NCBI GenBank assembly: GCA_030620005.1
Contig: JAUXAJ010000085.1
Location: 1-16,752, forward strand
DNA length: 16,752 nucleotides
Direction of reading: 5' to 3'
From: Promethearchaeota archaeon
GTDB lineage: Archaea; Asgardarchaeota; Lokiarchaeia; Sigynarchaeales; SOKP01
Below the pieces are notes generated by a model that did not search any database, was not told the DNA's origin, and was given only the letters and a program-made list of their open reading frames with translations. How positions within the stretch are numbered: the stretch's first letter is position 1; every line of letters starts with the position of its first letter. Shown one piece after another: positions 261 through 16,752 of this stretch. The position numbers were made by a program, and so were the translations under genes.

Positions 261-364
261 CGGGCTATAGGGGAATCGAACCCCTGACCTTCCTTTCTAT
301 ACGATGATCTCACATAAAATTCAGGTTAAGAGCCTGCTGCGCTACCTGCCTGCGCTAATAGCCC
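261..364 (-). tRNA. tRNA-Lys(CUU) with ~30-nt intron near position 43/44
   Basis: Read on the minus strand from 364: acceptor GGGCTAT (364-358) pairs with ATAGCCC (268-262), discriminator G (261). D-stem GCGC/GCGC encloses a standard loop with G18G19 and A21. The anticodon stem is GCAGG/CCTGA, with the 27-43 pair not Watson-Crick. The loop CTCTTAA carries anticodon CTT (330-328). T-arm is AGGGG, TTCGATT, CCCCT (285-269). A normal tRNA needs about 5 nt between the anticodon stem and the T-stem, but there are 35, so about 30 nt (roughly 320-291) is an insertion. An inner helix TTTTAT (319-314)/ATAGAA (300-295) and a CCT/AGG helix around the junctions suggest a relaxed BHB. The exact cut sites are uncertain by a base or two. 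The intron lies outside the anticodon loop, which is non-canonical. G73 fits archaeal tRNA-Lys. Confidence 0.88.
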
Positions 365-9107: not shown

Positions 9108-9992
9108 ATGAATATTGACCCAAATATCCAGGAAAAAATTAAGATTATTATAGCCGGCTTGGATAATGCTGGAAAAACCAGCTTCTTAATAGCTCTTAGA
9201 AAAAAATATAATTTTTACGAGGAAGTTCAGAAATTAAAGCCCACAATCAAAATAGATTATAGTTCATTTAAATTTTTAAATCATCTCTGTTCTTTATGGG
9301 ATATGGGAGGACAGGAAAAGTATCGAAAAATCTACATGAATAATCCGATTTATTTCACGGCGACTAAGTATCTTTATTACATTATTGACATTCAAGATGA
9401 GTTAAGACTAGAAGAATCAGCTCAATACTTGCACGAATTATTAGAAATTTATAGAGGAAAGGATATTGACTATTCAAACGAAATTCTTATTTGTTTTAAC
9501 AAGTATGATCCAAAATATAAGAAAAATGAAGAGTTTTCGGAGCGAACAGAGATGATTAAAAATGTAATTTTAATTCAAAACAAGGACTTTCAATTCAGAT
9601 TTTTTAACATGTCCTATTATGATATATCATCTTTATCGAAAGCTTTATCGTATTCTTTAAGTAAATTATTAAATCTCGAGACAATTAATGCTACGTTGGA
9701 AAAAATAATGGAAGAATTTGACTGTGGCTATGTCATTTTATACACTGAATCGGGATTAATAATTACTGATTACTATAAAGAATTAATTGATCCAAGAGAT
9801 TTTGAAGAGAAAATTGTTAAAATTAACGACGATCTTGAGTTTTTCCAAAGATTAATTGACGAAAAGATAAGTATTGATGAGAGAATAACATTTTCTGATA
9901 ATAAAGTCGAATACGTGAAAAGATACGATGGATTAGAAAAATATCGAGATGGCAAGTTTTATTTAGGAGTTTCGTATCTCCCCAAAAAATAA
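9108..9992 (+). CDS. Arf/Rag-like small GTPase with C-terminal roadblock/longin-like region
   Basis: This 294-aa protein has a GTPase domain at residues 10-190. P-loop GLDNAGKTS (17-25) is the Arf/Rag form. Thr46 lies in KPTIK (switch I), WDMGGQE (64-70) has the switch II Gln, and NKYD (131-134) gives guanine specificity. Residues 195-294 (LEKIMEEFDCGYVILYTESGLIITDYY...YLGVSYLP) look like an alpha-beta domain of the roadblock/longin type, as in eukaryotic Rag/Gtr GTPases that pair through C-terminal roadblock domains. By analogy it may dimerise or bind a roadblock partner; that is inference. There is no N-terminal glycine for myristoylation. ATG start. After the stop a different frame encodes a short coiled coil. 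Asgard archaea are known to be rich in such GTPases. Confidence 0.82.
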   Translation: MNIDPNIQEKIKIIIAGLDNAGKTSFLIALRKKYNFYEEVQKLKPTIKIDYSSFKFLNHLCSLWDMGGQEKYRKIYMNNPIYFTATKYLYYIIDIQDELRLEESAQYLHELLEIYRGKDIDYSNEILICFNKYDPKYKKNEEFSERTEMIKNVILIQNKDFQFRFFNMSYYDISSLSKALSYSLSKLLNLETINATLEKIMEEFDCGYVILYTESGLIITDYYKELIDPRDFEEKIVKINDDLEFFQRLIDEKISIDERITFSDNKVEYVKRYDGLEKYRDGKFYLGVSYLPKK

Positions 9993-10096
9993 ATGAACTC
10001 AAGGTGGAATTAGAAAAGTTCCAAAAAGTTTTAGAAACCTTGTGAAAAAAAAAAAATTAAAATTCAATTTTTACTTTTTTTACATATAATCATAAG

Positions 10097-10104: not shown

Positions 10105-10128
10105 ATTTTTAATCATGCCAGAACATGC

Positions 10129-10299
10129 GCCAGAGTTGCCACAGACTTCACGCCTGAGCCATGGAGTCGCTTAGCCCGGATTTATTAAAGTCTTAAAACT
10201 TTTATGAAGGACATTTGAGCGTCAGCCTGCAGAGTTGATATGCGAGGGTTCAAATTTGGAATTACATTGCGTGATGCCATGAAAATCCCTCCTCTGGCT
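10129..10299 (+). tRNA. tRNA-Cys(GCA) interrupted by three introns, CCA encoded
   Basis: Acceptor GCCAGAG (10129-10135) pairs with CTCTGGC (10292-10298), discriminator T (10299), then CCA (10300-10302). U73 is the archaeal tRNA-Cys identity base. Anticodon stem TCAGC/GTTGA (10222-10226/10234-10238) closes loop CTGCAGA with GCA at 10229-10231. T-stem is GAGGG/CCCTC. Intron 1 is 10136-10166 (31 nt, after base 7). Intron 2 is 10180-10214 (35 nt, in the D-loop). Intron 3 is 10255-10285 (31 nt, in the T-loop). Each fits a BHB motif. Intron 3: helices GGG/CCC and TTCA/TGAA with bulges AAT/AAT. Intron 2: GCTTA/TGAGC, then GCCC/GGAC (one mismatch), bulges GGA/ATT, inner helix TTTAT/ATGAA. Intron 1: GCG/CGC, CCAG/ATGG (one mismatch), bulges AGT/AGT. 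Splicing leaves 74 nt with D-loop AGCCCGGTT and T-loop TTCAAAT, a standard cloverleaf. Confidence 0.9.
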
Positions 10300-10302
10300 C
10301 CA

Positions 10303-10362: not shown

Positions 10363-11115
10363 CTACTTTTGTTTTTCCCATTTCTTCAGATATATTACTT
10401 CGGAAAGCGTAGATCCTCTTTTAATTTCTTCCCGAAATCTATTTTCTTTCTCTAACACATTGATAGCTCTGTTCGCCATCTCTTGAGCTTTTTTTTTAGG
10501 AATTACAACTACACCGGAATCATCTCCCACGATCCAATCTCCCGGGGCAACATTTTGACCAGCACATACGATGCTGACATTAGTTTCTCCTAATCCTCTA
10601 GGTTCACCAGCAGTAGGAGTAAAATGTCTAGCAAAAAGGGGAAATTTAATTTTTCTTATATCATCAATATCTCTTACAGCGCCATCAATAACTACGCCTG
10701 CTATTCCTTTTACTTTGCAGCTCCACGATGCCAACTCGCCCCAAACTGCAATGTTTCCTTCACACGCATCTATCACGATGACATCTCCTTTTTCAGCTTC
10801 TTCAATTGCTTCAACGGGTTTACTCCAATCTCCATTATACGTTCTAACGGTATAGGCAGGCCCAGCAAATTTCAATGGTAGTTCTTCATTACCTATCCAC
10901 ACTGGTTTTAAACCCTTCATCTCTCCTGATCTGTGCATGGCGTCAGATATATTTGGAGTTGAAACTTTCATGAACGCATCCTTGATATTGGCAACATCAT
11001 ATTTTTTAAACAATTCTGTTTTTATTGGTTTTGCAGATCTAATTGCTTGTAAAATGTTTTTTGCCGTGTTTTCGGGTTTTTGAGATTTATAAAGAGCACC
11101 TCCAACAATTATCAC
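10363..11115 (-). CDS. RraA-like domain, C-terminal part of an interrupted HPS-RraA fusion
   Basis: From GTG 11115 this is 250 aa. Residues 1-25 are the last beta-alpha unit of the preceding HPS barrel (IIVGGALYKSQKPENTAKNI). Residues 45-230 are an RraA-like/HMG-aldolase domain: TPNISDAMHRSG, FAGPAYTVRT, GDVIVID, GELAS (126-130) and GVVIDGAVRD with Arg148-Asp149, the residues used for metal and substrate binding in RraA-type aldolases. Related proteins act on 4-hydroxy-4-methyl-2-oxoglutarate-type substrates or bind RNase E in bacteria; HPS-RraA fusions occur in archaea with unknown RraA function. The frame is continuous upstream with the HPS half except for one TAG at 11181-11179. Stop is TAG, with an in-frame TAA four codons later. 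The GTG is internal to the HPS fold, so independent translation from it would give a partial barrel end. Confidence 0.8.
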   Translation of the reverse strand: MIIVGGALYKSQKPENTAKNILQAIRSAKPIKTELFKKYDVANIKDAFMKVSTPNISDAMHRSGEMKGLKPVWIGNEELPLKFAGPAYTVRTYNGDWSKPVEAIEEAEKGDVIVIDACEGNIAVWGELASWSCKVKGIAGVVIDGAVRDIDDIRKIKFPLFARHFTPTAGEPRGLGETNVSIVCAGQNVAPGDWIVGDDSGVVVIPKKKAQEMANRAINVLEKENRFREEIKRGSTLSEVIYLKKWEKQK

Positions 11116-16548: not shown

Positions 16549-16752
16549 AGGATTTCCTACCTTACTATAAAGTAAGGCTTGCGTGCTAATATAAAACCCG
16601 CCTCCCGAAGGAGTAGTCCACATCGGCAATGTTACTATGGGTTTCCAGAAGGTTCCCCTTCGGTTGTCAGAAGCACTGGTCCTAACCCTGCAGGACTATT
16701 TAACCCCTGGCCGTAGTGTTTGGGGCTTGTGGAGCATTTCGATGTATCTAAG
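16519..16752 (-). ncRNA. Unidentified structured RNA, 5' end beyond window
   Basis: About 230 bp has clearly higher GC than the flanks, no open frame, and many helices. On the minus strand these include CTCC-TTCG-GGAG (16613-16602), a classic UUCG tetraloop; GAAGG-GGAA-CCTTC (about 16662-16649), a GNRA loop; GTCCT/AGGAC (about 16696-16679); CCTTACT/AGTAAGG (16577-16560); and a long-range TCCACA/TGTGGA pair (16734-16729 with 16622-16617). UUCG and GNRA loops appear only when read on minus, and the end has a hairpin with T7, so minus is the preferred strand. I looked for the signal-recognition-particle RNA helix 8 motif, RNase P CR-I and CR-V, and 16S/23S 3'-end landmarks, and saw none. It may be a divergent RNase P RNA, another housekeeping RNA or something new. 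Confidence 0.6.

Follow-up and report, generated by a model that had tools for sequence, protein, structure and literature searches.

A candidate three-intron tRNA-Cys(GCA) gene in a Lokiarchaeota locus and a provisional association of leader acceptor-strand copies with 5′-proximal tRNA introns

The stretch of DNA analysed here (16,752 nucleotides, hereafter the window) belongs to an Asgard archaeon of the Lokiarchaeota. Its tRNA-Cys gene (10129–10302, plus strand) is flanked on one side by a gene for an Arf/Gtr1-like GTPase (9108–9992) and on the other by an RraA-like gene (10363–11115, minus strand), the product of which shares 80–84% identity with homologues on eight Candidatus Lokiarchaeota contigs (L001–L008). 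Neither ARAGORN nor Rfam returned a match at the tRNA-Cys gene (10129–10302). The relatives used for comparison were 83 genomes, all of the class of G002, which is the genome of L002. Two other RNA features were noted in the window. A tRNA-Lys(CTT) gene at 261–364 (minus strand) is interrupted in the variable region; in comparison with an intronless tRNA-Lys(CTT) of G002 the insert was read as a 30-nt intron at position 44/45 (319 to 290), another register scoring slightly higher. At 16611–16752 (minus strand), cut by the window end, lies a sub-threshold HEARO RNA match (31.8 bits, gathering threshold 83, E = 0.0023), perhaps the omega RNA of an IscB-like element.

Removal of 31, 35 and 31 nt from 10129–10302 gave a tRNA-Cys(GCA) with an encoded CCA end, the cuts lying at position 7/8, at 19/20 in the D-loop and at 59/60 in the T-loop. 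When all ways to cut the 171 nt (10129–10299) plus the encoded CCA (10300–10302) were enumerated by script, a 77-nt mature tRNA was obtained by 25 cuttings, which are the 5 × 1 × 5 sliding registers of a single three-intron set; the boundaries given below are the best bulge-helix-bulge (BHB) register at each junction. All parts lie on the plus strand. Exon 1 (10129–10135, nt 1–7) is the acceptor 5′ strand GCCAGAG, complementary at 7/7 positions to CTCTGGC at 10292–10298 and shared by 11 of the other 15 sequences in a tRNA-Cys alignment. It is followed by the probable intron 1 (10136–10166, 31 nt, position 7/8, best of five registers), by exon 2 (10167–10179, nt 8–19), which is homologous to the tRNA-Cys of relatives, and by intron 2 in the D-loop (10180–10214, 35 nt, position 19/20). 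Exon 3 (10215–10254, nt 20–59) carries the GCA anticodon uninterrupted according to the cutting script and the alignment with relatives; intron 3 (10255–10285, 31 nt, position 59/60) interrupts the T-loop, and exon 4 (10286–10302, nt 60–73 with the encoded CCA) was placed by the script and by stem pairing. The preliminary description had read this gene as 171 nt that become a 74-nt tRNA-Cys(GCA) on loss of three introns, all outside the anticodon loop; the script recovered the same lengths, and the three positions agree with that reading.

All 21 of 21 stem pairs were formed in the spliced tRNA, which could be aligned with 15 tRNA-Cys sequences of the class genomes. In this 16-row alignment, which is biased towards the canonical tRNA by our own splicing, 99.1% of cells were paired and 10 pairs had both sides changed (equalled by 0 of 500 shuffles), further pair types giving a weaker signal (22 of 500 shuffles equal). 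As is typical of archaeal BHB tRNA introns, removal yields a canonical tRNA. The exons all stand in order inside 174 nt, unlike those of split or permuted tRNA genes, and the broken stems and lost conserved bases of tRNA pseudogenes were not seen.

The strength of each junction was scored as twice the number of central pairs plus the inner and outer pairs, taking the best of the sliding registers, and compared with 20,000 mononucleotide shuffles of the intron letters. For intron 2, with a central helix GCCC/GGAC (3/4 pairs, one C·A mismatch) and inner and outer helices of 5/5 each, 6 of 20,000 shuffles reached the observed score; for intron 3, with a central helix TTCA/TGAA (4/4) and an outer helix of 5/5, the count was 211 of 20,000. 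Fold energies relative to shuffles gave z values of −1.57 around intron 2 and −1.45 around intron 3. The structure of intron 3 is present in the minimum free energy (MFE) fold at zero cost, with a 4-nt 5′ bulge, and for intron 2 the MFE fold already contains the inner and outer helices, the central helix being enforceable at a cost of 2.1 kcal/mol. At both junctions a central helix with bulges at the splice sites was found, in the relaxed and not the strict form of the motif. Introns 2 and 3 are thereby well supported; they project as additional arms from a cloverleaf that is normal in other respects. The earlier claim that every junction can be drawn as a BHB with 3-nt bulges held in part: in the fold of intron 3 the 5′ bulge has 4 nt, and at intron 1 no good inner helix was found. 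Its further statement that introns 1 and 2 each have one central-helix mismatch was borne out (CCAG/ATGG and GCCC/GGAC, 3/4 each).

A tRNA-Cys gene adjoins RraA in four of the eight Lokiarchaeota loci, with one intron each, at 22/23 (L002, L007), 58/59 (L006) or 37/38 (L004), and no syntenic tRNA-Cys was found within 900 nt of RraA in L001, L003, L005 and L008. Two kinds of tRNA-Cys were distinguished in the class, type 1 with a GCCAGAG-like acceptor and a GCTTAG-like D arm, and type 2 with a CCGAG D arm and likewise a GCA anticodon. Among the matches listed, type 1 was read in at least 17 of the 83 genomes, one of these genes (G057) being cut by a contig end. Introns were present in 11 of the 17, at 22/23 (G002, G007, G027), at 58/59 (G006, G008, G025), at 37/38 (G001, G004, G005, G077) or at both 37/38 and 58/59 (G078); the genes of G028, G036, G040, G054 and G060 have none. 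Neither a three-intron gene nor an intron at 7/8 was seen among the type-1 genes of the 17 relatives. Introns 2 and 3 of the window gene had no significant similarity to the introns of relatives (best 125 and 231 of 2000 shuffles), and some introns of relatives are similar to one another (G007/G027 1, G006/G078 3, G025/G078 5, G006/G008 12 and G007/G002 28 of 2000 shuffles). The intron positions in relatives lie 1–3 nt off those of the window, an offset that may reflect either intron sliding or separate gain. A single-gene tree of RraA, with one of seven inner branches starred, is too poorly resolved for dating the introns.

A second tRNA-Cys(GCA), of type 2, was read in 14 of the 17 type-1 genomes, with some copies intronless; in G025, G057 and G077 none was found or only weak matches were. 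Judged from these relatives, the window gene is probably not the sole tRNA-Cys of its cell. This could mean that it is a decaying pseudogene and that the second tRNA-Cys(GCA) does the work, a reading in line with the type-2 genes of those 14 relatives, but one that we regard as highly improbable, as all 21 stem pairs form, the exons match those of relatives while introns 2 and 3 lack significant similarity to theirs, and the type-1 gene is retained, with differing introns, in 17 relatives (one contig-cut). Because all stems of the window tRNA are intact, the two types are read here as two maintained genes and not as proof of a pseudogene. Class genomes commonly have both tRNA-Cys(GCA) types, which differ in the D arm. 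Three further observations concern tRNA genes of these relatives at large. In G002, G007, G027 and G028 the introns often lie at non-canonical places, with two in some genes. With Rfam at E ≤ 0.01, the 4.6 Mb of G002 gave 19 tRNA matches. On contig 266 of G007 and contig 157 of G027, many tRNA matches are crowded into about 1.4 to 6.5 kb, and these clusters perhaps derive from a virus or from another organism in the bin.

Intron 1 is the least regular of the three. Its central helix CCAG/ATGG has 3/4 pairs, its outer helix GCG/CGC uses leader nt −2 and −1, its score was matched by 1358 of 20,000 shuffles, and the fold around it gave no signal (z = +0.99). Enforcing its helix cost 4.1 kcal/mol within the first 60 nt, 14.7 kcal/mol in a precursor with the leader from 10119 (inside the leader copy described below), 14.1 kcal/mol once introns 2 and 3 were removed and 10.1 kcal/mol with the whole leader copy; the probability of this BHB in the predicted ensemble was 0.0. 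As modelled, intron 1 is a relaxed, bulge-helix-loop-like motif. It is called probable because of the perfect acceptor stem, the spacing to a promoter-like motif and the introns that follow the acceptor strand in further tRNAs of the class.

The 5′ end bears directly on intron 1. A third near-copy of this end, GCCATGGAGTC (10158–10168, plus strand), spans the 3′ end of intron 1 and the first two nt of exon 2 and offers a rival start, in which only introns 2 and 3 would be real, the tRNA would begin at 10158 (GCCATGGAG), either a 2-nt bulge or a mismatch in the acceptor stem would result, and the upstream GCCAGA copies would be leftovers of tandem duplication in a leader. A match to covariance model R1, built on the mature tRNA-Cys, begins at 10158 (56.1 bits), the BHB of intron 1 is the weakest of the three, and the three near-copies of the 5′ end are arranged in tandem. 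Yet the R1 start is unreliable here, since long insertions are penalised and with the filters off the start moves to 10210, inside intron 2. Only a start at 10129 provides seven acceptor pairs (7/7 with the 3′ strand) together with two connector bases before the D stem, against the 2-nt bulge or mismatch left by 10158. The promoter-like motif AAAATTAAAATTC (10053–10065, plus strand) lies 76 nt before 10129, 64 nt before 10117 and 105 nt before 10158. The motif AAAATTAAAATTT, which was picked by eye from the leaders of relatives, stands 52–82 nt ahead of the tRNA in 14 of 17 relatives at up to three mismatches; at this threshold it was not found in G006, G028 and G023. Because 105 nt is beyond the 52–82 nt of relatives, the start at 10129 is favoured, and a start at 10158 is considered unlikely. 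The upstream copy at 10117 was also tried as exon 1 in three registers, which gave at most 2/4 central pairs.

Introns close behind the acceptor 5′ strand were found in other tRNAs of the class. The tRNA-Thr(GGT) of G002 has a 29-nt intron at 8/9, the BHB of which combines four central pairs with a matching inner helix and was equalled by 1 of 5000 shuffles; in eight type-2 tRNA-Cys genes the acceptor and the D arm are separated by an insert. A register with four central pairs was available in six of these eight, at 9/10 in G005 and at 10/11 in G001, G031, G032, G055 and G074; the register is not clear in G002 and G033, where the central-helix probability is about 0. In unconstrained cut scans of four other tRNAs, tRNA-breaking cuts ranked as high or higher (for Thr, 16 against 15 for the cut at 8/9), so the junctions are not fixed by BHB scores alone, and the canonical tRNA was used as the constraint for junctions in the tRNAs of relatives.

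Twelve nucleotides upstream of exon 1, the leader of the window gene contains GCCAGAA (10117–10123, plus strand), a 6/7 copy of the acceptor strand with a chance expectation of 0.0008–0.008 by composition. Among relatives, an acceptor copy of at least 6/7 within 20 nt upstream was present in 8/8 tRNA-Cys genes with a 5′-proximal intron and in 1/66 others (Fisher P = 6 × 10−10, a value that is too optimistic, being inflated by kinship: G031/G032 and G055/G074 are near-identical pairs, so that the independent events are fewer). All eight copies are 7/7 and lie at 6, 10 or 12 nt, the seventh base of those at 6 nt being G1 of the tRNA itself; the sole exception among the 66 is G022, with a 6/7 copy. 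The count covers 74 tRNA-Cys genes whose leader could be read, of which 16 are type 1 and 58 are not, and excludes the window, G030 and G057 (contig ends), the tRNA-Cys of G009, G011, G014, G015, G079 and G082, the matches in G017, G021, G080 and G083, and weak further matches. The hypothesis was drawn from the window gene, the tRNA-Thr of G002 and the type-2 tRNA-Cys of G001, G002 and G005, and was fixed before the type-2 genes of G031, G032, G033, G055 and G074 were read, all five of which have the copy (5/5). The tRNA-Thr of G002 with its 8/9 intron likewise has a 7/7 acceptor copy in the leader. A T-arm/acceptor scan of 1.99 Mb of G002 gave 33 matches (12 in the reversed control), of which 20 were read as tRNAs and three, Thr, type-2 Cys and Leu, have a copy. 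This tRNA-Leu (L419, contig C1), which has a D-loop intron and a 7/7 copy 11 nt upstream, was kept out of the leader-copy rule on account of its repetitive leader. The association of a leader acceptor copy with a 5′-proximal intron is proposed as new, provisionally and at the level of sequence. No such leader copy is described in the accessible parts of PMC4090602, PMC4033280, PMC3218864 and PMC11782384, subscription journals being largely outside this scope.

In folds that began at the copy, the copy paired with the 3′ acceptor strand through six or seven pairs in 9/9 leader-copy genes with a 5′-proximal intron (eight Cys, one Thr); with 30 nt more leader the pairing was retained in 8/9, G032 being the exception. 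The central splicing helix had a mean probability of 0.0–0.33 without a leader and of 0.79–0.997 with a 30-nt leader in seven of the 10 genes tested (Cys of G001, G031, G032, G055, G074 and G005; Thr of G002). For the Cys of G002 and G033 and for the window gene, this probability stayed near 0 with or without the leader. Scrambling of the copy (40 times each) lowered the average to 0.09–0.50 (0.02 for Thr), and single scrambles reached 0.98–0.997 in five of the seven (G001, G005, G031, G055, G074). For these seven genes of relatives, and not for the window gene, the modelling suggests that the leader makes the true 5′ end available to the splicing helix.

A placeholder may be encoded by those tRNA genes of this class in which an intron directly follows the acceptor 5′ strand. 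The leader copy would pair with the 3′ acceptor strand and keep the cloverleaf closed, leaving the true 5′ end free for the BHB; after splicing, the true strand would displace the placeholder, which RNase P would remove, and the window gene with its 6/7 copy would be a weakened case. We put this forward tentatively, as a proposal at slightly less than even odds. Alternatively, the copies may play no part in splicing and be a footprint of the local tandem duplication by which 5′-proximal introns would arise. Many introns are reported to have direct repeats close by (PMC11782384, in the part considered), some scrambled copies still allow the modelled helix (maximum up to 0.997), and no effect is predicted for the Cys of G002 and G033 or for the window. 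However, both repeats lie upstream of the intron instead of flanking it, the copy is exact in five type-2 genomes with a 10/11 intron (two near-identical pairs among them), each copy matches the acceptor of its own tRNA (Cys or Thr), and folding predicts a splicing effect in 7/10 genes; a footprint is a possible but rather doubtful explanation.

Splicing endonuclease genes were identified by PF01974, which matched in 82 of the 83 class genomes, with two matches in 67, three in one and one in 14; the one match of G002 is of the second-subunit type. The best matches of the catalytic subunit are solved archaeal splicing endonucleases (3p1z_B, 4.9 × 10−40), and the second subunit matches the same family. 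The histidine of an LEHS motif, which we take to be a catalytic residue, was present in 6/6 catalytic subunits read and absent from 7/7 second subunits read; it is replaced in 3ajv relative to 3p1z, in line with a catalytic role. The guess in the preliminary description that the endonuclease must accept relaxed motifs fits with the gene content of relatives, in which a catalytic subunit is accompanied by a second subunit without this histidine. By analogy with the enzymes covered in reviews (PMC4033280 and PMC4090602, in the parts considered), the two subunits may form a heterotetramer of broad specificity.

Taken as a whole, the preferred reading is a three-intron tRNA-Cys(GCA) gene with a transcribed leader, the introns of which would be cut by a two-subunit-type endonuclease and the leader of which would be removed, to which we assign a probability of roughly 0.78. 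It builds on the sequence, the exon homology, the structures at junctions 2 and 3 and the leader-copy association in relatives, and adds to these a proposed course of transcription, cleavage and order of events, and a role for the leader copy. The gene would be transcribed together with its leader from an AT-rich promoter upstream, and an archaeal splicing endonuclease of the two-subunit type, tolerant of relaxed BHB motifs, would excise the three introns from the precursor. Exon ligation would follow, and then removal of the leader by RNase P, as in known archaeal tRNA processing. The splicing helix of intron 1 would borrow acceptor nt 2–4 and nt 9–11 and would thus compete with the acceptor and D stems; intron 1 would have to be cut during transcription, or at a stage when the 3′ acceptor strand is held by the leader copy.

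The arrangement had been described as unfamiliar in Asgard archaea. This needs narrowing, since 92–95% of tRNA genes in Atabeyarchaeia and Freyarchaeia have introns, often non-canonical, and over half have multiple introns (PMC11291895, in the part considered); what stands is that neither a 7/8 intron nor three introns were read in a type-1 gene of the relatives. Those lineages are likewise Asgard with multi-intron tRNAs, but belong to other classes, and the part of PMC11291895 considered mentions no leader copy. In Thermoproteales, which are of a different phylum, tRNAs have up to three BHB introns each, at non-canonical sites such as 20/21, 22/23, 59/60 and, as an extreme, 3/4; 7/8 and 19/20 of the window gene are not among the positions named in the parts considered, in a list that ends with "etc." (PMC4090602, PMC4033280). 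In the split tRNAs of N. equitans and C. maquilingensis, complementary leaders help to build the BHB (PMC4090602, in the part considered). A leader sequence is predicted to help in a similar way in seven genes of the relatives studied here. In the present case only one transcript is involved, and the copy, a repeat of the 5′ strand of its own tRNA, would have the 3′ acceptor strand and not a second leader as its partner.

The window gene would place a member of the Lokiarchaeota among the archaea that have three-intron tRNAs, and a single tRNA gene with several intron positions across relatives provides a natural series for the gain and loss of tRNA introns. The leader-copy rule, if functional, would explain how an intron that uses the acceptor strand of its own tRNA is spliced, and it predicts cryptic tRNAs that are missed by tRNA finders.
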